Shown here: positions 9,311 through 38,704 of the stretch, in pieces
Layout: the number at the start of each line of letters is the position of its first letter
How positions within the stretch are numbered: the first letter of the stretch is position 1
Origin: a virus
Direction: 5' to 3' (one strand)
IMG/VR virus record: IMGVR_UViG_3300009515_000241
Span: 1-41,122 of that record
Length of the DNA: 41,122 bases
Made by a program: the position numbers and the translations under genes
The notes under the pieces: model-generated
The model's database searches: none
What the model was told of the DNA's origin: nothing
What the model saw: the letters and a program-made list of their open reading frames with translations, nothing else

Positions 9311-9621
9311 TCACCCGACCCGGAAGTGGTCGGACCGCTGGCGTGCGTCGTCGTTGAGGGCGAACACACCAGGAGGGCGATCCCAGGACCGCTGGCGGCC
9401 CCCCTGGCCGTCCTGGAGCTCTACGCGCTCCGTGGGACCTCCGGAGCTCTCGGCGGCTCCAGGGGCCCCCTGGGGCGCCGGAGCGTGCAGCGCGATCCAG
9501 AGGCCCAGCGCGCGAACCTGTTCGGCTCGCGGCTGCTCGTAGAGGCCGAGGGTCGACCCGTACCAGCGGAGGCCGATCAGGGCGTAGTCCCGGTGGAGCC
9601 CTGCGCCGGCTCCTCGGGAAA
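9311..9621 (-). CDS. Tail assembly chaperone, -1 frameshift extension
   Basis: About 100 residues readable only in the -1 frame relative to the upstream chaperone gene; there is no ATG, GTG or TTG before its ordered part (DYALIGLRWYGSTLGLYEQ). In lambda-like tails a G protein and a frameshifted GT fusion are made from such overlaps and load the tape measure. Here the T4 run at 9619-9622 (codons GAT TTT CCC in frame 0) lets the TTT codon re-pair exactly after a one-base slip, giving GGA TTT TCC. A pseudogene or an independent unusual start is possible, but location and frame fit the conserved arrangement. Confidence 0.65.
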
Positions 9622-10095
9622 ATCCGCCGCGGCCTCGCCCACCTCCGCGGCCGTCGGGATCGAGTCCGAGCAAGCGGCCCGGAGGTCGCCGCCGGTGCGG
9701 TACAGGTCGCCGAGCTTGTGGCCGCGCTCGAGGAGCGCCGAGAGGACCCGCTGGCCGAAGCGCTCGAGGTCCCGGCCGAGGGCGCGGATCGCCACGTCGG
9801 CGTCGCCCGGGAGCGTGTACCGCTGGAGCTCGCGGCCGAGCTCGCCGCCCAGGTCGACCCAGGCCTCCAGCTCGAGCGGGGTCCGGGCGTCCGCCCAGCA
9901 CAGGCCCAGGCAGGCGCCGAACACGCCAGCCAGGGCCTCCTGGTCCGCCTCGCGGCTCGGCCTCGTGTCGCCCTCGGCGAAGCCCAGGGCCTCGCGGTAG
10001 GCCGTCGTGAGCCGGAAGCGGTCCGGGAGCAGGGGGAGCCGGCCGGTGTACTCGACGCCGGCGATCGTGATCGTGAGCGCTAGTCCGTCGCCCAT
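9577..10095 (-). CDS. Tail assembly chaperone (G-like)
   Basis: 172 residues from ATG 10095 (MGDGLALTITIAGVEY). Mostly helical after an N-terminal beta hairpin, Asp/Glu-rich C-terminus ending FPEEPAQGSTGTTP. Small acidic-tailed protein placed between the major tail protein and the tape measure with a -1 overlapping frame, the hallmark of tail chaperones. It probably coats the tape measure during tail assembly and is absent from the finished virion. Preceded by a strong hairpin at 10125-10152 that may lower its transcription relative to the tube protein. Confidence 0.7.
   Translation of the reverse strand: MGDGLALTITIAGVEYTGRLPLLPDRFRLTTAYREALGFAEGDTRPSREADQEALAGVFGACLGLCWADARTPLELEAWVDLGGELGRELQRYTLPGDADVAIRALGRDLERFGQRVLSALLERGHKLGDLYRTGGDLRAACSDSIPTAAEVGEAAADFPEEPAQGSTGTTP
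9616..9625 (-). promoter_or_regulatory. Candidate -1 programmed frameshift site
   Basis: Minus-strand sequence GGATTTTCCC. Phe-tRNA on TTT can move back one base and still read TTT. CCC to TCC in the A site mismatches at the first position, so the site is weaker than a canonical X-XXY-YYZ heptamer. It precedes the zero-frame stop at 9577 by about 40 bases. The only route into the downstream open frame that I can see. Confidence 0.5.
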
Positions 10096-13868: not shown

Positions 13869-14822
13869 TCAGTCGTCTACGGAGATCAGCCGCACCTGGG
13901 GCGCGATCGTCGGGTCGGCGCTGGCGACGCCGAAGTAGGCGTTGGCGTCCCACTGCGCCGTGGCCGTGTTGCCGGTGGACTTCCGCTCGCACACCAGCCC
14001 GATGCTCGGGATCACCATGGCCTGGTCGGGGTCCTCGACCTGGACGGGCGCGGTCGAGGCGACGGCCCAGCCGATGGCGCCTGGGGCGAAGGCTCCGCCC
14101 TGGTGGTCGCCGCCGGAGGCCGTGACGTCGAAGCTCGCGAAGTTGCGGAAGCCGAGGAAGTCGACGGCGCCGCCGCCGGGGCGGAGGCCCTGGAGCGCCT
14201 GGGAGATCTCCGGGAACTGGAAGTTGGGCTCGTTCCGGATGCTCGCCCTCAGGTCGGTGTACTGCTCCGGGTGTCGGATCGTCACGGCCTCGCCTTCGAA
14301 ACCCTCCGTCTCGTGGAAGAACGCGACCAAGTCGAGCTCGTCGTCGAAGGTCCAGGCCAGCCCGGTGTTGCCCACGGTCCCGGTGAAGCCGGCCATGGCG
14401 GTGGCCACCTTCTGGCGGAAGGTCTTCAGCCAGCTCTCGGGGATCAGGCCCTTGAGGGCCTCGAGCATGGCCATCCCCTCGCGGCCGAGGATCTGGGCGG
14501 TGTAGCTCTCCTCCTTCGAGAGGCCGTGCCGCGCGATGGTGACCACGTCGAAGCCGGTCGTGAACCCGGTAGCCGTGATCGCCGCCGTCTCGCTGCCCAT
14601 GGTGGCCATGGCCTCGGCCCAGCCGACGGCCCCGATCCGGGTGACGCGTACCGTGTCGGACCCGGAGCCGGCGAGGTCGCCGACCAGGGGGATCACGCCG
14701 AGCTGGAGCAGGTCGAGCCGCTCCGCGATCTCGCGCCGGATCGCCTCCTCCGCGAACACGTAGGCGAAGCCGAGATCGGTCACGAGCTGGGCGTGAGTCG
14801 CGGGAGGGGTGATCGTCGTCAT
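13869..14822 (-). CDS. Major capsid protein
   Basis: 317 residues from ATG 14822 (MTTITPPATHAQLVTDLGFAY), with a GAGGAG ribosome site. Helical N-terminus, then a beta-rich body (SDTVRVTRIGAVGWAEAMATM), SYTAQILGREGMAMLEALKG and a C-terminal strand region (AQWDANAYFGVASADPTIAPQ), consistent with HK97-fold capsids of about 300 residues. Position after portal and scaffold-like genes is canonical. A 150-base upstream region separates it from the scaffold-like gene, suiting separate control of the most abundant virion protein. Assigned on context, size and fold impression. Confidence 0.75.
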   Translation of the reverse strand: MTTITPPATHAQLVTDLGFAYVFAEEAIRREIAERLDLLQLGVIPLVGDLAGSGSDTVRVTRIGAVGWAEAMATMGSETAAITATGFTTGFDVVTIARHGLSKEESYTAQILGREGMAMLEALKGLIPESWLKTFRQKVATAMAGFTGTVGNTGLAWTFDDELDLVAFFHETEGFEGEAVTIRHPEQYTDLRASIRNEPNFQFPEISQALQGLRPGGGAVDFLGFRNFASFDVTASGGDHQGGAFAPGAIGWAVASTAPVQVEDPDQAMVIPSIGLVCERKSTGNTATAQWDANAYFGVASADPTIAPQVRLISVDD

Positions 14823-14974
14823 GGCGGGAGCTCCTCGAGGTGGGCGTCGTCCGCCCCTTGTCGCCCGTTGCGCGGGCCAGCCGATCGGGGCGGCTTGTGC
14901 GGAGCGGCGTCCGGTTGCGCCGGCGAGTCGAGGAGCTCCACTGAGACGGGCCTATCAGACGCCGCGCGCACGCG
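14823..14974. promoter_or_regulatory. Leader of major capsid gene with 12-bp inverted repeat
   Basis: A 152-base non-coding gap on the minus strand. ggagctcctcga at 14827-14838 and tcgaggagctcc at 14928-14939 form a perfect 12-bp inverted repeat separated by 89 bases. In the minus transcript the 3' arm contains the GAGGAG ribosome site of the capsid gene, so pairing would hide it. The arms use words that are very common in this genome, which weakens the case. Confidence 0.3.
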
Positions 14975-15643
14975 TCAAGAGGCCGGAGGCTTCGCCGGTG
15001 GAGCAGGGGGGGCCGCTGGAGCCAGCCCGTAGTTCGCCCCGTGCTGGGCCTTCCAGGCGTCCACCTGGGCCGGCGTCATGCTCTGGAACATGGTCCGGAG
15101 CTGGCTCGGCGTGAGACGCTTCGGAGCTCCAGGAGGCACCGGACCCGCGCCGGTGTTCCCGGCCGGCCACGCGGGCGCCGGAGGCACCGGCGGAGCTCCA
15201 GGGCGAGGCGGAGCCGGCGGAGCTCCAGGAGGAGCGGGCGGCGCGCCAGGGGGGGCCGCGGCGAGCTTCGGAGCCAGGAGCGGGTTTGCCCTCGCCCCGT
15301 CCTCGGCGGCGAGCCAGTCGGCGAAGCTGGGCGGCTCCTCGAGGCCCGCCGCGTCGCTCGCGTAGAGGGCCGAGAAGGACTTGACCTCCCGCGGGTCGTG
15401 GATCCCCAGGGCGGCGAGCGCCGAGGTCCTCGAGGCGCCCTCGGTCAGGCGGACCACCTCGCCGGCGAGGCGGGCCCGCTCGGACTCGACCTGGTCGAAG
15501 CGCCCGGCCTTGTCGGCGCTCGTCGTGAGCTCGGCGCGGAGGAGCTCGATCTCGCCTGACTTAGCCTTGAGGCGCTTCTCGTGGTCCTCCTGGGTGAGGA
15601 CTCCTGGGACGTCGGCGCTGCAGGCTGGACACTTGTGGGCCAC
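14975..15643 (-). CDS. Scaffold-like protein with CPAC motif and Pro-rich linker
   Basis: 222 residues from ATG 15643. Starts MAHKCPACSADVPGVL (a single C-x2-C pair), followed by a coiled coil at about 20-75 (HEKRLKAKSGEIELLRAEL), a compact middle (NPLLAPKL), a long Pro/Ala/Gly linker at 130-180 and a C-terminal helix pair (LTPSQLRTMFQSMTPAQVDA). Such helical, linker-rich proteins between portal and capsid are commonly scaffolds that shape the procapsid. The lone CxxC is unusual for a scaffold; it might bind zinc as a dimer. Confidence 0.6.
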   Translation of the reverse strand: MAHKCPACSADVPGVLTQEDHEKRLKAKSGEIELLRAELTTSADKAGRFDQVESERARLAGEVVRLTEGASRTSALAALGIHDPREVKSFSALYASDAAGLEEPPSFADWLAAEDGARANPLLAPKLAAAPPGAPPAPPGAPPAPPRPGAPPVPPAPAWPAGNTGAGPVPPGAPKRLTPSQLRTMFQSMTPAQVDAWKAQHGANYGLAPAAPPAPPAKPPAS

Positions 15644-15665
15644 GGCTAGTCCTCCGGGCGCGGGG

Positions 15666-17318
15666 TTAGTCGTCGTCGGCGTCGCCGCCGTCGTCGTCGT
15701 CGACCTGGTCGGCCGGGTCTGGGGCCGCCGGCGGCGCGGGCGGAGGCGGCGGCGCTCCCTCGAGTCCCAGGCGCTCGAGCTCGGCGGCGACGAGCGCCTC
15801 CACCTGGCGCCGCTCGACCTCGGAGCGGACGATCTGGGCGACGGCGTCCTCCCTCGAGGTCCCGGGCCGGCGCTGCTGGACCACCTCGACGGGCGAGATC
15901 ACGCCGTGCTCGAGATCCCAGTCCAGCTCCTCGCGCGCGGCGGCCTGCTCCTGCGGAGACTCCGGGATCTGGTGGTACTGGATCGAGTAGCCGTCCAGCG
16001 GGAACGAGGCGATCCGGGCCCGGGACAGGGCGAGCGCGGCGAGCCGGATCATGCGCAGGTCGGCGCGGCGGAACAGCGGGGTGAGCTGGCGGGCGAACTC
16101 GCGGCGGCCCTTGCTGGTCACGAACAGCGCCGCCCCGCTCATGGGCGCGTTCGAGAGCCGCTGGAGATCGGCCGGGTTCAGGCCCCACCGGACGGCCTGC
16201 TTCTGCTCGTAGAGGCTCGCGTACCCGGCGACGGCCTCGAGGTTGCTCCCGGGCCCCACCTCCTGGAACAGGACCTGGCCGCCCTGGGCGTCCGGCTGGT
16301 GATAGACGATCGCGCCCGGCGTGAGCGTGAGCGTCTGGGCCGGGCGGGCCTTCGTCCGGACGTCGTCGCGGCGTACGGAGGTCGCCGGCTTCGCGACCCC
16401 GACCGCGAGGACCATAGACCCGGACGCGTCGCGCGCGGCGTGCTGCGCGTATGTCCAGTTGAGGGCCGCGTTGAGCGTGCCCCGGAAGGCGCCCCGCTTG
16501 CTCTGGACGTTCCAGAGCTCGCCGGAGTCCTCGGACCTGTACCAGGCGTACGGGATCTGGGGCCCCTGCTGTGGGTCGATCCATGGGTAGCGGTCGCCGA
16601 CCCAGATCCCCTCCGGGTTCTCCGCCGTGCCGAGGAACACGGCCGAGACGTCCTCGCCATGCCCGACCGCGCTCGTCGCCGTGCCGAGGGTCGCGCGGTA
16701 GCTCGGCTCTCCGCCTCGGTCGGGGTCCTCGAGGCGGTACTGGTCCCACACCCACACCCAGGTCTCGAGCTGGGCCCACCAGCGCAGCCGGAGCTCCCAG
16801 AGCTCGGTCGGCTCGTCGGGGTGGTCCGGGTTCGCCGTGGCGTAGGTGTTGTGGGGCGACACGAGCCGGAGGGAGAGCCGGCGACCGACCGCGTCGGCGT
16901 CCACACGGAGGAGGTAGTCGCCCAGGCCACACGCGAAGTACTGCACGCGCTGGAGCTTTGTCCAGGCTCCGGCGTCGTCGAGGAACCCGCCCTCGCCGAC
17001 CAGGCCGGCGGCGACCTGGTCCATGTGCGAGACGCGCGGGCGGACGCCGTAGAGGCCCGGCGTCGTGAGCTGTCGGCAGATATCGCCGAGCGGGTTCGCG
17101 CTGGTGTCAGGCGGGCCCCAGACGTCCAGACGCTCCTCGTCGACGTGCTGCTCGAGCCAGTCCTCCAGGAGGTCGTCCCAGCTCTCGTTCAGGACTTGCC
17201 AGCGGGCCTCCGTGTGCTCCGTCCGGTCCTGGTCGATCTGGGTCGGGAACCTGGGCCGGGGCGGAACGATGTCCCGCGGGTCGAGCGTGTTCGCGGTGAC
17301 GGTCCCGGTTGCTGGCAT
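15666..17318 (-). CDS. Portal protein
   Basis: 550 residues from ATG 17318 (MPATGTVTANTLDP). Follows the large terminase and precedes the scaffold and capsid genes. Typical portal features: mixed N-terminal domain, an aromatic beta region (LRLRWWAQLETWVWVWDQYR), the helical region with ALNWTYAQHAARDASG, a long helix-turn region (YASLYEQKQAVRWGLNPADL) and a C-terminal helix (EDAVAQIVRSEVERRQVEALV) ending in an acidic Asp-rich tail. It forms the dodecameric gate for DNA entry and exit. Length fits the SPP1/HK97 portal range. Confidence 0.8.
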   Translation of the reverse strand: MPATGTVTANTLDPRDIVPPRPRFPTQIDQDRTEHTEARWQVLNESWDDLLEDWLEQHVDEERLDVWGPPDTSANPLGDICRQLTTPGLYGVRPRVSHMDQVAAGLVGEGGFLDDAGAWTKLQRVQYFACGLGDYLLRVDADAVGRRLSLRLVSPHNTYATANPDHPDEPTELWELRLRWWAQLETWVWVWDQYRLEDPDRGGEPSYRATLGTATSAVGHGEDVSAVFLGTAENPEGIWVGDRYPWIDPQQGPQIPYAWYRSEDSGELWNVQSKRGAFRGTLNAALNWTYAQHAARDASGSMVLAVGVAKPATSVRRDDVRTKARPAQTLTLTPGAIVYHQPDAQGGQVLFQEVGPGSNLEAVAGYASLYEQKQAVRWGLNPADLQRLSNAPMSGAALFVTSKGRREFARQLTPLFRRADLRMIRLAALALSRARIASFPLDGYSIQYHQIPESPQEQAAAREELDWDLEHGVISPVEVVQQRRPGTSREDAVAQIVRSEVERRQVEALVAAELERLGLEGAPPPPPAPPAAPDPADQVDDDDGGDADDD

Positions 17319-18810: not shown

Positions 18811-19482
18811 TCAGGATCCCCGGCCGCCCTCGACTACGCCGAGGAGCCGGAGCCCCTTCCGCTCCTCGTAGGTCCGGATCGCCAGCTCGAGGAGGGCGTC
18901 CGGCCACTCCCGGAGCGCCAGGCCGAGCTCGGCGGCGAAGGCCTCGGACTCCATGTCGTAGAGGTCCTGGGCGTCGTCGCCCGCCTGGAGCGCGACCGCG
19001 AGCTCCTGGGCGAGGTCCCGCGCGAGCCGCTGGCCGGCGAAGTAGGCCTGGAAGGACCCGGACCGCAGCGCGGCCCGGTTCGCCTCGTGGACCTCGCGGA
19101 TCTGTCGGCGGAGGCGCTGGGCCGGCTTCTCGTCCTCGAGCTCGTCCGCGACGCGCTCCCGCGCCGAGCTCGCCGAGCCGCTCCGGTTGTAGCCGTGGCG
19201 GCGCTCGAGGAGCCAGGCCGCGGCCTTCCAGTCCCCCTCCTTCGAGGCGCCGGCGATCCGGGTCATGTGGAGCGCGGCGCCCTGGGCCTCGGCCTCTTTC
19301 AGCGCCTCCCAGAGCTCCCGGAACTGGCCCCGCTTCGCCTTCCGGCCGGTCGCGAGCCATCGGGCCAGGGTCGAGCGCCCGACGCCGGCGTAGTCCGCCT
19401 GGAGCTCCCGGGTCAGGCCCAGGCGCGCGGCCTGGACCAGGCGGGCGCGACGCTCCGGCGTGAGCTTCGAGGGCCTACCCAT
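18811..19482 (-). CDS. Terminase small subunit-like DNA-binding protein
   Basis: 223 residues from ATG 19482 (MGRPSKLTPERRARLVQAARLG). The N-terminal 60 residues form a helix-turn-helix in the style of terminase small subunits (LTRELQADYAGVGRSTLARW), followed by a long helical region (QRLRRQIREVHEANRAAL) and a C-terminal acidic helix bundle. Directly precedes the large subunit in the same frame. It would recognise packaging initiation sites. Longer than many small subunits (about 150-180 residues). Confidence 0.75.
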   Translation of the reverse strand: MGRPSKLTPERRARLVQAARLGLTRELQADYAGVGRSTLARWLATGRKAKRGQFRELWEALKEAEAQGAALHMTRIAGASKEGDWKAAAWLLERRHGYNRSGSASSARERVADELEDEKPAQRLRRQIREVHEANRAALRSGSFQAYFAGQRLARDLAQELAVALQAGDDAQDLYDMESEAFAAELGLALREWPDALLELAIRTYEERKGLRLLGVVEGGRGS

Positions 19483-20758
19483 CGGCGGGCCCCAGGGCCC
19501 CCGCTCCGGGATCGACGTCGAGGTCCTCGGCGAGCCGGGTCCACCGGCGGCGGATGACGTCCGCCCACGCGGGATCGATCTCCATCATGCGGCACGGTCG
19601 GTCCTCGAGCTGGGCGCACACCGCGAGGGTCGTCCCGCTCCCGCCGAACAGGTCCACGACGAGCTCGCCCGGCTCCGTCAGGAGCTCGACGCACCGGCTC
19701 ACCAGCTCGGCCGGCTTCTGGGCGTTGTGCTCCCGCTCGTCGCCTGCGACCCGGGAGTACTCGCCGAGGTCGTTCGAGGCGTAGACGGGCCGGATCCCGG
19801 GGCGCGCCTTGTCCGTCATGGTGTGGGCCGTCGGCGCCTTCGTCCAGTAGCCGATCAGCTCGTAGGAGTTGCCGAAGCTCGAGCCGAGGCCGGCGCCGGA
19901 CTTCCGCCACACCAGGAGGTTCCGCGGGTCCAGGTTGGTAGACCGGGCCACCTCCCACCACGAGGGCCAGGACCGCCAGTCGCAGCACACCAGCGCGGCG
20001 CCGGCGAGCTCGAGGGAGAGCTCGGCGGCCTGAAGGACCTGGCGGAACATGGGGCGGACGATCCGGTCGTCCGTGATCGTGGAGCTCGTCCCGGTCGAGG
20101 AGCCGAAGATCGCGAACGGCGGATCCGTGAACACCAGCCGAGCCTTGCCGACCTCGTCGCCCAGGAGCTCGCGGACCTGGTCGAGGTCCGTCGAGTCGCC
20201 GACCAGGAGCCGATGGGGGCCGAGCTCGTAGAGCTGGCCCGGCTTCGAGTCCGGGTCCGCCTTGAGCTCCGGCGCCTTCGCGGTCCCGGTCAGGCTGCCC
20301 CACCGGCCGCCCTGGCCCAGGAGCTTCGCCATGGCCTCGCGGGTCCAGCCCAGGCCCTCGAGGTCGACCTCCACCTCGGCGAGCTCGGCGACCTCCTTCC
20401 GAAGCGCCTCCGTGTCCCAGCTCGCGAGCGCCCCCAGGCCGTTGTCGGCGAGCCGGTAGGCTCGGAGGTCCTCGTCGGACATCCCCTCGACCAGGACGAC
20501 ACGGACCAGGGCGGCGCCCTGCTCCAGCGCACCCTTCCACCTGGTGTGTCCCGCGGCGATCGCGCGGTCCTCGGCCCGCGCCACGATCGGCGCGAGGAAG
20601 CCGAAGCGCTCGATGGACTTCGCGACCGGGAGGACGGCCCTCGCGTTCTTGCGAGGGTTCGGCGAGGCCTCGAGCTCGGCGAGCTCGGAGGGGTCCATCC
20701 AGATCGCCGCGGCGTCGCCGGGTCGCACTTCTGCGGACTTGTGCGGACCTGTGCTCAC
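19475..20758 (-). CDS. ParB-domain / DNA methyltransferase fusion
   Basis: 427 residues from GTG 20758 (GTGA overlap). Residues about 20-130 are a ParB/Srx-like domain with the signature AGHTRWKGA (GHTR at 70-73). The C-terminal part is a DNA amino-methyltransferase: catalytic DPPF at 212-215, and the SAM-binding motif DLFGGSGTT near 385, i.e. the order IV then I of beta-class enzymes. It methylates adenine-N6 or cytosine-N4 in phage DNA. Such ParB-MTase fusions are known in phages; the ParB part may guide or license binding. No restriction partner is encoded. Confidence 0.85.
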   Translation of the reverse strand: MSTGPHKSAEVRPGDAAAIWMDPSELAELEASPNPRKNARAVLPVAKSIERFGFLAPIVARAEDRAIAAGHTRWKGALEQGAALVRVVLVEGMSDEDLRAYRLADNGLGALASWDTEALRKEVAELAEVEVDLEGLGWTREAMAKLLGQGGRWGSLTGTAKAPELKADPDSKPGQLYELGPHRLLVGDSTDLDQVRELLGDEVGKARLVFTDPPFAIFGSSTGTSSTITDDRIVRPMFRQVLQAAELSLELAGAALVCCDWRSWPSWWEVARSTNLDPRNLLVWRKSGAGLGSSFGNSYELIGYWTKAPTAHTMTDKARPGIRPVYASNDLGEYSRVAGDEREHNAQKPAELVSRCVELLTEPGELVVDLFGGSGTTLAVCAQLEDRPCRMMEIDPAWADVIRRRWTRLAEDLDVDPGAGALGPADG

Positions 20759-21426
20759 GGGACCTCCGGGAGGGCCGAGCTCGGCTCGAGCTCGAGCTGG
20801 TTCGGGTTGGCGCCCTTCCGCGGCGTCCGCCGGGCGTCCGGGTCGAGGCACCACGACAGCCAGGCGAGCTCCGTCGGGCCGCGGTAGCCGCGGCGCCAGA
20901 CGCACCAGGCGTAGCTCGCCGAGTCGGTCCCGCCGCCCGTGAAGCTGGGCCGCTCCACCACGAGGTGGACCCGCTCGGGACGGTGCGCCAGCCACAGGGG
21001 CGAGCGGCCGCGCCCGACCAGGAACCCGACCCGGAGGAGGAAGGCGACCAGGCCGCCGGGCTTGACCAGGCGTAGCGCCCGGCGGACGAAGGCCTCGGCG
21101 TCGCCGTACGGCGGATTGCCCACGATCGCGTCGTAGCCGTGATCCCTGGGCCAGCACAGGAAGTCGGCGTGGCTGACCTGGACCCCGCGAGTCCCCTTGA
21201 GCTCCTCGGCCGCCTCGCTGTCGATGTCGAGCGCGAACACGAGGCCCTTCGTCGACCACAGGCCGGCGATCAGAGGCTCGACGAAGGCGCCGCCGCCGGC
21301 GGCCGGCTCGAGGACCACGGCGCCCGGCGGGAGGTCCAGGAGTCCGACGAGCTCGGCGGCGAGCTCGGGAGGGGTGTCGTAGCGGTCGAGCTCGGCGCGC
21401 TCCGCTCCGCGGCCTGTGGCGCTCAT
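20755..21426 (-). CDS. DNA adenine-N6 methyltransferase (NPPY)
   Basis: 223 residues from ATG 21426 (ATGA overlap with the gene before). SAM-binding motif EPAAGGG at 40-46, acidic FALDIDS at 64-70, and catalytic NPPY at 104-107 in IVGNPPYGDA. Motif I precedes motif IV, as in gamma-class N6-adenine enzymes. It lacks a distinct target-recognition domain and has no nuclease neighbour, so it is an orphan methylase, probably protecting phage DNA from host restriction. Coupled by a four-base overlap to the ParB-fusion methylase. Confidence 0.85.
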   Translation of the reverse strand: MSATGRGAERAELDRYDTPPELAAELVGLLDLPPGAVVLEPAAGGGAFVEPLIAGLWSTKGLVFALDIDSEAAEELKGTRGVQVSHADFLCWPRDHGYDAIVGNPPYGDAEAFVRRALRLVKPGGLVAFLLRVGFLVGRGRSPLWLAHRPERVHLVVERPSFTGGGTDSASYAWCVWRRGYRGPTELAWLSWCLDPDARRTPRKGANPNQLELEPSSALPEVP

Positions 21427-22757
21427 GGGAGGGCCTCGATCGCGTCGTTGAGCAGGACGGCCGCGGCGGCGAGGCGGGCGCGGATCTCGGAGTCCGTCTG
21501 GCCCAGGGTGACACGGAGCGCGGCGTGGTTGGCCCGCTCGACCTTGAGCCGCTCCCGCGCGTCGTCTCGGTCGCGCCGCGCTTGCTCGAGCTGGGAGCTC
21601 ATGCCGAACCCCGCCGCCTTGAGGTCCTCGAGCTGGCGCCGCGCGTCCGTGAGCGAGACGAGGGAGGCCTGGCGCTTCTGCCTCGCCTCGCCGAGCTCCT
21701 GGCCGAGCTCGTGGACCTGGGCCTCGAGGAAGTCGAGCCTGAGCCGCGCCGCGTGGAGCTCCTCGAGGGCCTTCCGCCCGACCTCGTCGCCGGAGACGGC
21801 CTGGCGCGCGACGCCGAGCTGGGCCTTGAGCTCCTCGATCGTGTCGAGGCCCTGGAGCCGGAGCGCCGAGGCCCTAGCCTCCCGCTCGCCGGCGGCCTGG
21901 GCCCGCTCCCGCCACAGGTCCCGCTCCCGCTCGAGCGCGCGCCGCCCGCGCTGGTCGTCCTCGAGCTCGTCGGCCTCCTGCTCCACCTCGGCCACGCGGG
22001 CCTCGGCCTTCTCGGCCCGCGCCTTCCACAGTGCGACCGTGGGCCGGAAGGCCTCGCGGACCTGTTCGGCCCGCCGCTCGACGGACCGATCCACCAGCTC
22101 TACGAGCTCCGGCGCCAGGCCCTCGAGGGACTCCGGGGCCCGGCCGTCGGCGAGGTCCTCGACCGCGAGCCGCGCGATCTCGAGCTGGCGCTCCAGGCGG
22201 TCCCGGTAGAGCTCGGCGCGCTTCGCCGCGTCCGCCACGTCGGCTCGGAGCTCCTGGAGCGCGGCGGCGAACCGGGCCTCCGACCCGCGGTCCTCGAGCT
22301 CCGAGCGCAGCGCCTCGCCCTGGAGGGCCTCCTCGGCGTCCGTGGCGCGTCGCTGGAGCGCTCGGAGCGCCTCGACCGCGCGACGGACCAGGGCGGGGTC
22401 GTCGCGCCAGGTCGACAGGGAGGTCCCGGCCTCGTGCGCGTCGAGGCGGCCGTCGATGCGCCGGACCACGTCGCGGAGCTCGTCCCGCTCCCGCTCGAGG
22501 GCCTGGACTCGCTCCCGGCATCGTTCCCGACACTGCTCGAGGTCGCGCTCGAGCTCGAGGCGCTGGCGACGGAGCTCCGAGGCCTCGGCGTCCAGCTCGA
22601 CGATCCGGCGCTGGGCCGCGTCCCGCTCCTCGAGGAGCTCGACGTCCGGCGCGACCAGGCGCTCCTCGAGCTCCTGGACCTCCGCCCGGAGCTGGGCGAT
22701 CTCCTGTGCTGACTCGGCGCGAGCTCGCGCCGCTGCTTCCTGTGCTTCTGGTCCCAT
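21423..22757 (-). CDS. Long coiled-coil protein (444 aa)
   Basis: 444 residues from ATG 22757 (MGPEAQEAAARARAES). Nearly the whole length is charged heptad coiled coil (AQLRAEVQELEERLVAP, LERERDELRDVVRRI, RALERERDLWRERAQAAGE), with a non-coiled stretch around 105-120 (SLSTWRDDPALVRRA) and a helical C-terminus (DSEIRARLAAAAVLLNDAIEAL). No ATPase motif, so not an SMC or RecN protein. It stands between small coiled-coil genes and the methylase pair, outside the virion gene cluster. Function unknown; a scaffold or filament-like partner is possible. Confidence 0.75.
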   Translation of the reverse strand: MGPEAQEAAARARAESAQEIAQLRAEVQELEERLVAPDVELLEERDAAQRRIVELDAEASELRRQRLELERDLEQCRERCRERVQALERERDELRDVVRRIDGRLDAHEAGTSLSTWRDDPALVRRAVEALRALQRRATDAEEALQGEALRSELEDRGSEARFAAALQELRADVADAAKRAELYRDRLERQLEIARLAVEDLADGRAPESLEGLAPELVELVDRSVERRAEQVREAFRPTVALWKARAEKAEARVAEVEQEADELEDDQRGRRALERERDLWRERAQAAGEREARASALRLQGLDTIEELKAQLGVARQAVSGDEVGRKALEELHAARLRLDFLEAQVHELGQELGEARQKRQASLVSLTDARRQLEDLKAAGFGMSSQLEQARRDRDDARERLKVERANHAALRVTLGQTDSEIRARLAAAAVLLNDAIEALP

Positions 22758-22989: not shown

Positions 22990-23525
22990 GACGCGCCGCC
23001 CTTGAGCCGGTGGAGCTCGCGGCCGCGCTGGGCGGCGAGGGCCTCGAGGTCGGCCACGCGGGCCTGGAGCCTGCCGAGCTCCTCGATCGTGGCCGTCGCG
23101 CCCTCGATGGTTGCGGCGCCGTCCTCGAGGGCGCGCATCGCCGAGGCGAGCTCGGCCTCCAGGCCGTCCGCGTAGTCGATCCATGCGCCCTTGCTGGCGG
23201 ACTTCTGCGGGCGCGGGGTCATGTGGCTGTCGCTGGGTTCCATCGGGTCCTCCTGGGTCAGGAGCTCCCGGAGCCAGGGGCGCTCCCGGAGCTCGGTGAT
23301 CGTCATGCTGGGCAGCCACGGCGGCGGCTCCGCCCGGAGCTGGTCGAGCTGGGCCCGGCGCGTCGTCGCGACCGCGAGGAGCTCGGCGGGCGCCGCGCCG
23401 GCGGCGAGGAGCGCGAGGGCGTCCCGCGCCGTGGCCACGACCATGTCGGCGGCCCGCGCGTCCTGTCGAGCTCGCCAGGCGCGGAGCCGGCGGCGCTCGA
23501 GCTCGGTCCGGCGCTCGGCCCTCAC
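22986..23525 (-). CDS. Coiled-coil protein with WIDYAD module; possible internal second start
   Basis: 179 residues from GTG 23525 (GTGA overlap). N-terminal half is basic and helical (RRTELERRRLRAWRARQDA); the C-terminal half repeats the WI-YADxLExEL module of the next gene. An in-frame ATG at 23243 (MEPSDSHM) has an excellent AGGAGG site five bases away, so a separate 85-residue product corresponding to the paralogue may also be made. Either two fused genes or one gene with two products. Confidence 0.55.
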   Translation of the reverse strand: MRAERRTELERRRLRAWRARQDARAADMVVATARDALALLAAGAAPAELLAVATTRRAQLDQLRAEPPPWLPSMTITELRERPWLRELLTQEDPMEPSDSHMTPRPQKSASKGAWIDYADGLEAELASAMRALEDGAATIEGATATIEELGRLQARVADLEALAAQRGRELHRLKGGAS

Positions 23526-24800: not shown

Positions 24801-25400
24801 CTAGTCCTCCGAACATGGACAGGCCTCGAGGGCCTCGAGGGAAGCGCCGCCACAGTCGGCCGCGGCGGCGCACGGGAAGCGCTCCGGGCCGGCCTGGTAC
24901 CAGGCGGCGGAGCCATCGGCGGCCGAGCATGCCTCGAGCTCGCCACAGGTCGAGGCGCACACCGGCGTGCACGCCGGCGCGGCGTCCGGGTCGGTGTCGG
25001 GGTCCGTGTCCACCTCGACGCACCCGACCAGGGCGGCGAGGAGCAGGACGGTCCACAGGCGGGCGCGGTCCACGAGGCCTACGCGCATCGGCACGGCCCA
25101 GCGGGCGCAGTCCTCGCACCAGCGCTCTCCCCCAACCGGGAAGCGCCGGCGAGCCGGGTCGCCGCAGCGGTCGCAGCGCTCGTGGGGTGCCGAGGCGCGC
25201 GACCACCTCGCTCCGCAGAACGGACAGCGCCCGTGCGGAGCGAGTAGCGCCGGGCCGGAGGCCTCGAAGCCGCAACCGGCCGCGCAGGGCTCGGGATCAC
25301 GGAGAAACGCCGAGAAAATGCGACCGCGCGCGCGCGCAAGCCGAGGGCGTAGCCGAGGTACCCCCCCGTCCCTTGCAACATGGTCAGGTTCAAGCTCCAT
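24801..25400 (-). CDS. Zinc-ribbon protein joined to lipobox/Cys-rich segment
   Basis: 199 residues from ATG 25400, with a GGAGG site and an 11-base overlap with the previous gene. Four C-x2/3-C pairs at 39-43, 59-62, 76-79 and 95-98 suggest a double zinc ribbon. A hydrophobic run at 115-126 ends LVGC (C127), a lipobox, followed by an Asp/Thr/Pro linker and a Cys-rich tail. Taken from M105 (position 25088) the last 95 residues look exactly like a small lipoprotein, but no ribosome site precedes M105. It may be a fused zinc-ribbon/lipoprotein or two products from one frame. Confidence 0.55.
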   Translation of the reverse strand: MELEPDHVARDGGVPRLRPRLARARGRIFSAFLRDPEPCAAGCGFEASGPALLAPHGRCPFCGARWSRASAPHERCDRCGDPARRRFPVGGERWCEDCARWAVPMRVGLVDRARLWTVLLLAALVGCVEVDTDPDTDPDAAPACTPVCASTCGELEACSAADGSAAWYQAGPERFPCAAAADCGGASLEALEACPCSED

Positions 25401-31339: not shown

Positions 31340-31614
31340 GAGCGGTCCTCCTCTGCGACAAGCCAGGCGCCGAGGTGGGAGGCCTCCCCCGGGTACCGCT
31401 CCGGCCACCCGTGCCACAGGTGGTAGAGCCGGATCTGGTGGTAGGCGACAAGGTCCTCCAGGACTGGACGGAAGCCGGCGCCGAGCTCCAGGAGCTCGAG
31501 CTGGGCGCGCAGAGCTGGCACGACCAGGAGCCTGGGCTCGTCGCCGCCGTAGAGCGCGCGGCGGTAGAGGCGCCGGATGCGGTCCTCGAGCTGGTAGCGG
31601 CGCCGGGCGCTCAA
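31336..31614 (-). CDS. Small hypothetical protein
   Basis: 92 residues from TTG 31614, the only start available before the RusA-like stop and overlapping it as TTGA. Basic N-terminus (SARRRYQLEDRIRRLYRR), then LVVPALRAQLELLELG and a Trp/His-rich segment (YHLWHGWPERYPGEASHL). No family recognised. The TTG start is unusual but the four-base overlap supports it. Confidence 0.5.
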   Translation of the reverse strand: MSARRRYQLEDRIRRLYRRALYGGDEPRLLVVPALRAQLELLELGAGFRPVLEDLVAYHQIRLYHLWHGWPERYPGEASHLGAWLVAEEDRS

Positions 31615-32168
31615 CGGGCGCCCCCTCGCGGCAGGTAGGGCGGGAGCGGCGGCGCCCGCCAGACCCAGAGGTCGATCGACGCCGGCGCGCCCTCGGCCGC
31701 GTAGAGCGTGAGCGATCGGCCGTCCACGATGATCGCGTCATCGGTCCAGGCGATCCCGTTGAGGGCGTCGCAGTCGAGCTTCGCGCAGTTGTCGAAGTCG
31801 GGGCGACACGGGCGCCACTGCTCGAGGTCCGGGCTCGCGTTGTGGACCGGGACGGCCTTCTTGTCCTGGGGCCGCTTCCACCGGTGGACGATCAGGACGC
31901 ACAGGCACCCGGTCAGCGGGCCGTCTGGGAGCTGGCGCGGGACCAGGAGGCGGGCGGCCTCGTGGATGCTGTTCTCGACCTGGACCGGCGGCGAGGACTT
32001 GACCTGGTACGTCATGAGCGGCCCCGTCCCGAGGTTGCAGGTCGGGCACCGCTTGCCGGTCCGCCGGCTGTTCGGGTCCGCCTTGCCTCGAGGCTGGAGC
32101 TCGAAGCGGAGCGAGAGGAGCGGATCGTCCGGGACGGCCGCCGGAGCGAACAGGGGGATCTGGCTCAC
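31611..32168 (-). CDS. RusA-family Holliday junction resolvase, extra CxxC
   Basis: 185 residues from GTG 32168 (GTGA overlap). The RusA core is clear: RPDFDNCAKLDCDALNGIAW with D124, D126, K130, followed by TDDAIIV (D143, D144), the acidic metal-binding residues of these endonucleases. It resolves four-way DNA junctions during recombination and packaging. Unusually, the N-terminal half carries RTGKRCPTCNLGTG, a CxxC not found in standard RusA (about 120 residues), so the protein is longer by an N-terminal insert. Confidence 0.8.
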   Translation of the reverse strand: MSQIPLFAPAAVPDDPLLSLRFELQPRGKADPNSRRTGKRCPTCNLGTGPLMTYQVKSSPPVQVENSIHEAARLLVPRQLPDGPLTGCLCVLIVHRWKRPQDKKAVPVHNASPDLEQWRPCRPDFDNCAKLDCDALNGIAWTDDAIIVDGRSLTLYAAEGAPASIDLWVWRAPPLPPYLPRGGAR

Positions 32169-34329: not shown

Positions 34330-34590
34330 ATGGGCGAGGGATGGAAGTCCACAGGCTGGAGCCTCGAGGGCCAGGACCGGGAGACCGCCTCCCGGGTGCG
34401 CCGCCTCGAGGGGTACCAGCTCGAGGTGTGGCGGGCGGCGGAGGGCGTCTGGAACTGGGATGCGAGCCTCTACGAGGCGACCGGGATCGCGGTCGCCCGC
34501 GGCGTCGAGCGCAGCGAGCGGAAGGCGAAGGCAGCGGCGAACCGGTGGGCCCGCGGCCACGCGCGGCCGCCGCTCGGGCGGGCCTCGTGA
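34330..34590 (+). CDS. Small hypothetical protein
   Basis: 86 residues from ATG 34330, after GGGGAGGAC. Trp/Glu-rich (WKSTGWSLEGQDRE, YQLEVWRAAEGVWNWD) with a basic C-terminus (RSERKAKAAANRWARGHARP). Predicted helical. Adjoins the exonuclease gene by GTGA, so it may belong to the recombination module. Confidence 0.5.
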   Translation: MGEGWKSTGWSLEGQDRETASRVRRLEGYQLEVWRAAEGVWNWDASLYEATGIAVARGVERSERKAKAAANRWARGHARPPLGRAS

Positions 34591-35552
34591 CCCCCGCCGA
34601 GCGGGCGACCTGGCTCGAGGAGCGGCGGAAGGGCCTCGGCGGCTCGGACGTGGCCGCGGTCCTCGGCCTCTCCCCCTGGGCGACGCCCTTCGACGTCTGG
34701 GTCGACAAGGTCGACCCGCTCCCGGACGAGGACTCGAGCGTCAAGCGCCGCGGGCGGCTCCTGGAGCGCGCGGTCGGCGAATGGGCCGCCGAGGAGCTCG
34801 AGCGGATCCTGGAGCCGGCCGCCCACCTCGTCCACCCGGTCCACACCTGGGCCCGGGGGACGCCGGACTTCTGGCTCACGGACCCGAACGCGTACCCCTT
34901 CGCCCAGGCCCGGGACCGGCTCGGCCTCGAGTGCAAGACGGCCCGCTACATGGACGGATGGGGCGAGCCCGGCGCCGTCCTCGAGGTCCCGCCCCACTAC
35001 CGCGTCCAGGCCCTCTGGTACCTGGCGATCAGCGAGGCCCCGGCCTGGGTCGTCGCCGTGTTCGGGACCACGGAGGAGCGCTGGGAGCTCCTGGAGCTCG
35101 ACCGCGCGACCGAGGCCCCCCTCCTGGAGCGCCTCCTCGAGGTCGCCGGGTCGTGGTGGGAGCGCCACGTCGTGGGCGGCGACCCTCCCGAGCTCGACCT
35201 GTCCCGCGGCGCCTCGAGGTGGCTCCAGCGTCGACACCCGACCGGCGGCGAGCTCCGCGACGCGGTCGGCGGCGAGCTCGAGCTCCTGGAGCGCTACCGC
35301 GAGGCGAAGGAGCTCGAGCGGGTCGCGGTCGCCGAGCGGAAGGCCCTCGAGGTCCGCCTCAAGGCGGCGATCGGCGACGCCGGCGGCCTCCGCTCCGAGC
35401 TCGGCTCGGTCCGCTGGAGCCGCTACGACGCCAGGCGGCTCGAGGGGAAGCGGCTCCGGAAGGAGCGGCCAGACCTGGTCGAGGTCCTCGACGCCTACAG
35501 CCCACCCAAGCCGACAGGGCGCCTCACGGCGCGCTGGAAGGAGAATCCGTGA
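34587..35552 (+). CDS. YqaJ-type phage recombination exonuclease
   Basis: 321 residues from GTG 34587 (GTGA overlap). Lambda-exonuclease/YqaJ fold: GLGGSDVAAVLGLSPW at about 16-31, RGRLLE (E60), TPDFW (D94), LECKT (E115, K117) and VPPHYRVQALWYL, the QxxxY-like motif. These acidic and Lys residues bind metal and cut the 5' strand. It makes 3' overhangs for the RecT partner encoded two genes later. Confidence 0.85.
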   Translation: MTPAERATWLEERRKGLGGSDVAAVLGLSPWATPFDVWVDKVDPLPDEDSSVKRRGRLLERAVGEWAAEELERILEPAAHLVHPVHTWARGTPDFWLTDPNAYPFAQARDRLGLECKTARYMDGWGEPGAVLEVPPHYRVQALWYLAISEAPAWVVAVFGTTEERWELLELDRATEAPLLERLLEVAGSWWERHVVGGDPPELDLSRGASRWLQRRHPTGGELRDAVGGELELLERYREAKELERVAVAERKALEVRLKAAIGDAGGLRSELGSVRWSRYDARRLEGKRLRKERPDLVEVLDAYSPPKPTGRLTARWKENP

Positions 35553-35927: not shown

Positions 35928-37130
35928 ATGACTACCGAACAGACCGCCCTGGTCAAGCGCGGGAAGGCCCGCCTGCGGGGCCTCCTGGACCAGATGGGCG
36001 CGCAGATCGCCGAGGTCCTCCCGCGCCACCTCACACCCGAGCGGATGGCCAAGCTCGTCCTGGTCGAGGCCTCCCGCAACCCCGACCTGTACCGGTGCGT
36101 ACAGGAGGACCCGGCGAGCGTCGCCGGCTGCCTCATGCTTGCCTCGGAGCTCGGCCTCGAGCCGAGCTCGCCGCTGGGCCACTTCTGGCTGATCCCGCGC
36201 CGCGAGAAGCGGGATCCGAAGGACAAGAGCCGGAACCCGGAGCGTGTCTGGCGGTGTACGGCGATCATCGGGTACAAGGGCTTCGCCGAGCTCGCCCGCC
36301 GGTCCCCCGACGTGGCGAGGCTCAACGCCGGCGTGGTCTACGCCGAGGAGCTCGAGGGCCGGCCGCCGGCCTTCGAATGGAACGTGGAGCCGCCGGCGAT
36401 CACGCACCGCGGGAGGGCCGTCCAGGACCGCGGCGACAGGGCGCTGCGCTTCGCCTACGCGGTCGCTGAGCTCGTAGACGGCCAGCGCTACCAGGCCGTC
36501 CTGGACGCGGCCGAGGTGGACAAGCGGCGCCAGCGCGCCGGGACCCAGATGGTCTGGAAGTCCGACACCGCGGCGATGTGGCGCAAGACGGCGATCCGGG
36601 CCCTCCTGGGCGGCGGCCTGGTCCCTCTGTCCGCCGAGCTCGTCCGCGCAGTGAGCCACGAACGCGCCCAGGAGGTGGAACCCGTCGTGGTCGAGGACGC
36701 CGATGTGGTCGAGCCGGCGCAGCGCCAGACCCGGCGATCCGACCCGGTCCGGGCGGCCCTCGGGATGGACGAGGACCCGGAGGAGGCCGAGGAAGTCCAG
36801 CTGGAGAAGCCGCCAGCGAAGCGGAAGCGCACCCGGGAGGCGAAGGCGAAGGCGGAGGCGAAGGCGGAGGCGAAGGAGCCGGCGGCCGAGGCCCAGGCGG
36901 CCGCCGATCCCGACGCCGAGCGGACGGCGCTCCTCGCCGTGATCCTGGACTTCGAAGGAGAGCTCCCGACAAAGGACGTCGCCGAGGCGGCGAAGGCCGC
37001 CGGCGTCGTGGACCCGGAGGGCGCCGACCTGTTCTCGGGAGGGGTCGAGGAGGCGCCGACCGCGAAGCTCGTCGCGTACAAGGCCGCGCTCCAGGCCGCG
37101 CACGAGAAGGCCTCCGGCGGTGCCTCGTGA
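35928..37130 (+). CDS. RecT-family single-strand annealing protein
   Basis: 400 residues from ATG 35928. RecT core over about residues 20-235: PRHLTPERMAKLVLVEASRN, SVAGCLMLASELGLEPSSPL, HFWLIPRREKR, ACIIGYKG-type CTAIIGYKGFAELARRS, AGVVYAEEL and WKSDTAAMWRKTAIRALLGG, all hallmarks of RecT/Redbeta. It anneals complementary single strands for phage recombination. A long acidic/Lys-Ala linker (EAKAKAEAKAEAKE, from tandem DNA) precedes an extra C-terminal helical domain (AVILDFEGELPTKDVAEAAK), longer than usual RecT (about 270). Confidence 0.9.
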   Translation: MTTEQTALVKRGKARLRGLLDQMGAQIAEVLPRHLTPERMAKLVLVEASRNPDLYRCVQEDPASVAGCLMLASELGLEPSSPLGHFWLIPRREKRDPKDKSRNPERVWRCTAIIGYKGFAELARRSPDVARLNAGVVYAEELEGRPPAFEWNVEPPAITHRGRAVQDRGDRALRFAYAVAELVDGQRYQAVLDAAEVDKRRQRAGTQMVWKSDTAAMWRKTAIRALLGGGLVPLSAELVRAVSHERAQEVEPVVVEDADVVEPAQRQTRRSDPVRAALGMDEDPEEAEEVQLEKPPAKRKRTREAKAKAEAKAEAKEPAAEAQAAADPDAERTALLAVILDFEGELPTKDVAEAAKAAGVVDPEGADLFSGGVEEAPTAKLVAYKAALQAAHEKASGGAS

Positions 37131-38335: not shown

Positions 38336-38704
38336 GTGGAGAACCCGAAAACAGTCATCCCGAGGCTTTCGAGCGAGTCCGTCGCCTGGCTCCGCGCCCA
38401 CTCCGAGGCCTTCACTCCGGAGGCCTTCGAGCTGGTCGAGGAGCTCGACCGGCTCGAGGTGGCGCCGGACGACCCGCGCCGGCTTCACCAGGTCCTCGGC
38501 GACGCGCGCTCGGCGCTGTGGTCCGCGAGCCCCGGCGCCGGGGTCCGGCGGACGGCGGCCCTGTTCGACGCGTCGCTCGCGATCTCCGGCTGGGCGGACG
38601 CGTTCGCCCGCGGCGCGACGCTCTCCCAGAAGCTCGCCGCGGTCCTCCGGGCCTGGGCGCTCGCCCAGCTCGCCGAGGCGAGAGGAGCCGACCCGGCGGA
38701 CTAG
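38336..38704 (+). CDS. Hypothetical helical protein with own promoter
   Basis: 122 residues from GTG 38336, with AAGGAGG seven bases upstream. Helical (VAWLRAHSEAFTPEAFELVE, AALFDASLAISGWADAF, AVLRAWALAQLAEARG). It is the last gene of the rightward arm and is separated from it by a lower-GC leader. Function unknown. Separate control suggests expression at a different time. Confidence 0.6.
   Translation: MENPKTVIPRLSSESVAWLRAHSEAFTPEAFELVEELDRLEVAPDDPRRLHQVLGDARSALWSASPGAGVRRTAALFDASLAISGWADAFARGATLSQKLAAVLRAWALAQLAEARGADPAD

Follow-up and report, generated by a model that had tools for sequence, protein, structure and literature searches.

A lambda G/GT-type pair of tail assembly chaperones, produced by programmed −1 ribosomal frameshifting, is very probably encoded by this uncultured tailed bacterial virus (we put the probability at about 0.93, judged from sequence comparison). 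The window, which denotes the whole 41,122-base stretch that was analysed, carries its structural genes on the minus strand (Table 1). The end of gene G is overlapped by a −1 frame, T, and the two meet at the putative slip word G_GAT_TTT. A probable −1 frameshift in the tail chaperone had been suggested by a first-pass annotation of this DNA, and the suggestion is borne out by a T profile built from relatives and by conservation that sets in at the slip point.

We propose that most ribosomes would terminate at the G stop (9577). A smaller share would slip back one base at G_GAU_UUU, with tRNA-Asp on GAU in the P site and tRNA-Phe on UUU in the A site; tRNA-Phe would re-pair perfectly on UUU and tRNA-Asp imperfectly on GGA. 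Reading would then go on ...A-A-D-F-S-R-G-A-G... through T to give a predicted GT fusion of 261 aa (159 residues through Phe159, plus 102). By analogy with lambda, G would coat the tape measure protein, the T part of GT would recruit the tail tube subunit, and both G and GT would be absent from the finished tail. We infer the slippage itself, its efficiency, a tandem slip in which TTT occupies the A site, and a chaperone role from the patterns set out below.

Table 1 Coordinates of the chaperone locus and its neighbours in the window
Feature	Coordinates	Strand	Details
Sequence source			IMG/VR record IMGVR_UViG_3300009515_000241, 41,122 bases; GC 73.6%
Probable major tail (tube) protein, upstream of G	10683-10216	minus	155 aa; tail-tube-like model
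Gene G, short tail assembly chaperone (predicted)	10095-9577	minus	172 aa; ATG start, TGA stop
Slip heptamer G_GAT_TTT (putative)	9625-9619	minus	GAT 9624-9622 (P site), TTT 9621-9619 (A site)
T frame (−1)	9622-9311	minus	103 codons counted from the re-read TTT, then TGA
Dual-coded stretch, slip to end of G stop	9618-9577	minus	13 sense codons between TTT and stop
Small ORF between T and tape measure	9306-8797	minus	169 aa if GTG 9306 is the start
Tape measure protein	8793-6460	minus	777 aa; phrog_8462 at 5e-13 and other tape-measure families

Gene order and the two overlapping frames

G sits between the tube-like gene, whose fold is of moderate confidence, and the tape measure gene. The −1 frame had been described as lying before the tape measure, as in lambda. 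The −1 register stands, and the direct adjacency does not, since one ORF separates T from the tape measure gene. The mechanical call of this 169-aa ORF begins at 9369, and tblastn finds its relatives in loci L006-L009. The 155-aa tube-like model has a pLDDT of 67; it is matched best by phage tail, tail-tube and Hcp entries, with no E value at or below 0.001.

No chaperone or tube family of PHROG or Pfam was matched by the tube-like protein or by G of the window, and 27 aligned relatives of G gave few PHROG or Pfam matches, all weak or implausible. The structural model of G (pLDDT 84) has as neighbours 5ir0 (Z 6.2), 3klu (YqbN, Z 4.4) and 2ob9 (the HK97 chaperone, Z 3.4), values that fall under the level the tool regards as meaningful for helical models; the identities of the matches are striking. 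YqbN, which we take to be an XkdN-type chaperone, and the HK97 chaperone rank second and third among the 17 matches listed, with the next at Z 2.7, and the top neighbour, 5ir0, is a PICI protein without assigned function. Foldseek of the G model against the PDB returned nothing significant. As G matches no PHROG or Pfam family, its function is read from gene order and weak fold matches; taken together, gene order and the structural neighbours suggest that G is likely a tail assembly chaperone.

The −1 frame is open from stop to stop between 10798 and 9311 (minus strand). It contains no ATG, GTG or TTG between the slip codon and 60 nt beyond the G stop, in agreement with the earlier description of a second frame that lacks a start. 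A T profile made from 31 relatives, with the window excluded, matched only the −1 frame among 482 window ORFs (E = 2.2e-9), and its model position 1 falls on the slip Phe; L177 and L183 were excluded from the seeds, and L183 matched the profile later while L177 did not. A G profile from 12 relatives, again with the window excluded and with the first residue missing from the seeds of L010, L018 and L162, found window G at E = 6.7e-23 as its sole match among window ORFs of at least 50 aa. At about 9640-9580 the phase of GC bias passes from the G frame to that of T. T is less GC-biased (GC3 0.82 vs 0.95), lying below the GC3 of neighbouring genes. At 103 aa the window T is longer than those of its relatives (58-82), and the long stretch at 9313-9500 (minus) lies beyond the conserved part.

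The putative slip word and its turnover among relatives

Among isolate phages, tblastn with G, capsid and tape measure gave no match, terminases alone matching at 23-29% identity, and tblastn with the window and two relatives gave no close match. Single-protein scans, whose reach is limited to close relatives, found no close kin of G, capsid, terminase, portal or the 169-aa ORF in IMG/VR, and none of the terminase in genome contigs. An alignment of the terminase with three distant isolate phages gave access to IMG/VR contigs, the 28 best of which (L005-L032) have 27-47% terminase identity; a 16-sequence capsid alignment was discarded as too divergent. The set was widened by capsid and terminase profiles (best 80 per scan) and by one genome scan (three loci). 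G was found in 76 of the 216 loci gathered by these scans (L005-L220, some sharing a contig). Leaving out 9 that run off their contig gave 67 loci on 61 contigs which, with the window, form 34 clusters at 90% nucleotide identity. The closest T among the gathered loci, that of L165, is 51% identical over the first 53 residues. A locus in a Deltaproteobacteria MAG (L218, terminase 48% identity) gave neither a G nor a T match.

The site in the window reads GAT TTT CCC (9624-9616, minus strand). In 15 late genes Phe is written TTT in 5 of 168 cases and Asp is written GAT in 19 of 298, and from the codon usage of conserved genes the probability of Asp-Phe being spelled GAT TTT is 0.0013. TTTT occurs three times on the minus strand of the window, at 38351, at 25318 and at the slip site, and of these just the last falls in the late-gene half.

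Sites in the relatives were chosen in a set order, which gave first place to a candidate with A-site TTT in the final 30 codons, second place to words of the GGGAAA type and third place to two named words. Many loci hold several N_NNY_YYZ candidates and this order could flatter the result, under which 27 of the 34 clusters, window included, have TTT in the A site with a T before it; among relatives of lower GC, where TTT is a frequent codon, its presence is weak evidence. A-site re-pairing is present in all candidates by construction, since only sites with a re-pairing A-site codon were sought. The words, taken from cluster representatives, are G_GAT_TTT (14 clusters), A_AAT_TTT (5), G_GGA_AAC (4), G_GGT_TTT (3) and G_AAT_TTT (2), with A_GAT_TTT (L167), A_GGT_TTT, G_ACT_TTT (L151), C_CCT_TTG and C_GGC_CCT in one cluster each; the L006 cluster also includes L008 (GGGAAAT), and L199 (GGGTTTT) is not a representative. 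Only L177, of the 34, has no clear slip site. Of the 33 clusters in which a site was identified, 13 have the canonical form X_XXY_YYZ (A_AAT_TTT 5, G_GGA_AAC 4, G_GGT_TTT 3, C_CCT_TTG 1). Conservation of the T run, raised by the first-pass annotation as a check, is therefore partial: T_TTT is kept in those 27 clusters, and GGGAAAC, CCCTTTG, CGGCCCT or no site is found elsewhere.

Several loci bear on the register. In L006-L008, L164, L166, L179 and L183 a standard tandem word, G_GGA_AAC or its AAT form, stands where T begins. L165 has canonical A_AAT_TTT followed by CCC, which places the CCC of the window behind a canonical word. After TTT the clusters have CCC, ACC, TCC, ATC, TCT, ACT, CCG or TTA. 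Since the codon after TTT varies among relatives while the word itself is replaced at the same place, the relatives favour G_GAT_TTT as the slip word, its TTT occupying the A site; with the slip place and frame fixed and the words turning over, the pair that matters would be GAT/TTT. This revises the first-pass annotation, in which TTT (P site) and CCC (A site) were the slipping pair: the relatives point to GAT in the P site and TTT in the A site, and CCC is not conserved. That the site is not a standard heptamer was correctly seen, as GGATTTT departs from X_XXY_YYZ at the third base. The reason differs, in that GAT would re-pair poorly on GGA, and the failure of CCC to pair on TCC, offered earlier, is not the cause. 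Two loci carry further candidates, L167 with T_TTT_TTA one codon later and L171 with C_GGC_CCT. In L179 (17610-17619) the G stop TGA lies directly 3' of G_GGA_AAC.

A terminase tree covers 26 of the 34 clusters, 7 being without a usable terminase and L214 left out for a stop in the cut stretch. GGATTTT appears in four places on this tree, namely the window, L169, L022 and one six-row clade, and at least 4 changes between GGATTTT and other words are needed, some inner branches being weak. L162 (GAATTTT) is sister to L006 plus L164 (GGGAAAC). On balance we consider it reasonably probable that GGAUUUU is a working, repeatedly used −1 site for bacterial ribosomes and that the family constitutes a natural mutational series (AAAUUUU, GAAUUUU, GGAUUUU, AGGUUUU, GGGUUUU, GACUUUU, GGGAAAC), in which A-site re-pairing would be kept and the P site would be free to decay.

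Against shuffles, the 65-nt segment that immediately follows the slip has a mean fold z of −1.0 (sem 0.22, n = 33). At 13 other offsets z ranges from −0.43 to +0.14, and the excess folding is lost 13 nt further on. The downstream fold of the window itself is unremarkable (z −0.31, −1.07, −1.19), and RNAalifold found no convincing conserved downstream helix in the GGATTTT clade, with a double change in 1 of 14 predicted pairs. An upstream Shine-Dalgarno-like stimulator was also considered and rejected: the apparent dip does not exceed what synonymous resampling produces (mean fraction 0.53, 1 of 32 at <= 0.1), and the signal is thus due to the encoded amino acids.

Weighing the alternatives

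Coupled reinitiation at the G stop would make a separate T, starting in the window at the CTG of CTGA and in some relatives at ATG, GTG or TTG. L177 aside, 11 of 33 clusters do carry a T-frame ATG, GTG or TTG at −3 to +10 nt relative to the G stop, for example GTG in GTGA in L009 and ATG in ATGA in L214, and a start in relatives had been named beforehand as evidence against frameshifting. Yet each of these 11 clusters also has a slip candidate, the window has none of the three start codons, and the T profile aligns from the slip Phe. Conservation was compared among 12 relatives from a single clade (GGATTTT in 11, GGGTTTT in L141; 5 with a T-frame start). Pairwise amino acid identity in the 10 codons upstream of the slip is 0.65 for G vs 0.46 for the −1 frame; from slip to G stop it is 0.76 for T, 0.63 for the +1 control and 0.55 for G; beyond the G stop it is 0.85 for T vs 0.55 for G. 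The T frame is therefore the best conserved already before the G stop and upstream of the starts, which argues against reinitiation and suggests that T-frame translation begins at the slip, at least in this clade. Given the slip candidates in all 11 clusters and, in the 12-cluster clade, the conservation upstream of the start, the clusters with a T start do not refute frameshifting, and we regard reinitiation as very unlikely. The sole slip candidate of L009 (10967-11017) is C_GGC_CCT, and its GTGA overlap could itself start T.

A further alternative is RNA polymerase slippage on the T run, or an overlap that arises from a sequencing error or a chance open frame. There is a T run at the junction, and GC-rich DNA opens long false frames. 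A run of four Ts is short for transcriptional slippage, however, and GGGAAAC replaces it in some kin. An error or a chance frame is countered by the match of the T profile to the window and by the −1 frame itself, which extends 42-68 codons beyond the G stop in every one of the 67 relative loci where G is complete. The probability left to these explanations is negligible.

An improbable, though more serious, competitor concerns the manner of slipping. Here tRNA-Phe alone, in the P site, would slip on U_UUU with the next codon (CCC) awaited or entering, giving the same protein with other kinetics. The presence of T_TTT in 27 of 27 TTT-type clusters fits this, as does the poor P-site re-pairing that the tandem register would entail for certain codons (G_ACT in L151, A_GAT in L167). 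It is opposed by the freedom of the codon after TTT to vary, by the loci with the standard G_GGA_AAC/AAT tandem word, and by the P-site codon being GAT in 14 clusters. The GGGAAAC kin and the unconstrained next codon favour the tandem register, with tRNA-Asp and tRNA-Phe slipping together.

Relation to known systems and other features of the genome

G/GT frameshifting is a textbook phage mechanism. The window resembles lambda in having a short chaperone gene between the major tail protein and the tape measure, and a start-less −1 frame that overlaps the end of that gene. It differs in its slip word, which is GGGAAAG in lambda and GGATTTT here, and in a G that matches no known chaperone family. 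The lambda G protein covers the tape measure, T brings in tube subunits, and slippage sets their ratio (PMC5009743). The gene that intervenes before the tape measure has parallels in HK97, SPP1 and Burkholderia KL1 (PMC3483164, PMC5009743).

In pea enation mosaic virus GGAUUUU is well established as a −1 site, and mismatches there are costlier in the A site than in the P site (PMC4737148). It is a putative site in the yeast L-BC virus (PMC9391438) and is listed for other eukaryotic viruses as well. The window shares with pea enation mosaic virus 2 the identical heptamer and register, with an A-site tRNA that re-pairs fully and a P-site tRNA that re-pairs poorly (PMC4737148), and its G_GAT_TTT stands in frame at an ORF overlap as a site of this type does. 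The plant virus has eukaryotic ribosomes, downstream hairpins and a nearby stop, whereas the window would be read by bacterial ribosomes and no conserved helix was found. PRFect includes a 'twoonefour' motif for actinobacteriophage tail chaperones, derived from annotated phage frameshift overlaps, and GGATTTT would fit it if the motif is the two-one-four pattern that its name implies (PMC10885494). That motif class aside, none of the open-licence titles and passages covered, those of PMC3711429, PMC9658991, PMC3952083 and PMC12786184 included, gives GGATTTT as a phage or bacterial slip site. The four phage papers in which the string turned up have it in a primer, in an attachment site or as an entry for a ribosome-binding site.

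This type of frameshift is well known in phages, and what sets the window apart is its slip word, a rare variant for bacteria. Tools restricted to X_XXY_YYZ overlook such genes. A fixed slip position with changing words can probe which tRNA contacts bacterial frameshifting needs, a question so far mostly addressed with engineered sites. The analysis also puts a name to the probable chaperone pair of phages in which the structural genes have next to no counterparts in the family libraries consulted.

The capsid, portal and scaffold labels used for the window come solely from gene order and size. The proteins at the capsid and portal positions (13869-17318, minus) have neither a PHROG match at E <= 0.01 nor a Pfam match at E <= 0.001, and nonetheless have many IMG/VR relatives. 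ARAGORN predicts a tRNA-Gly (gcc) of 91 nt at 23042-23132 (plus), which is long for Gly and may be spurious. An ORF at 19475-21514 (minus) has a DNA methylase domain and a weak ParB-like domain under the Pfam cut-off, and is adjoined by a second methyltransferase ORF (20755-21426; PHROG DNA methyltransferase, 4e-45). A YqaJ-like recombinase (34341-35552, plus), RecT (35928-37130, plus) and RusA (31611-32168, minus), with Pfam matches at 3e-15, 3e-25 and 3e-10 respectively, make up a predicted phage recombination set.
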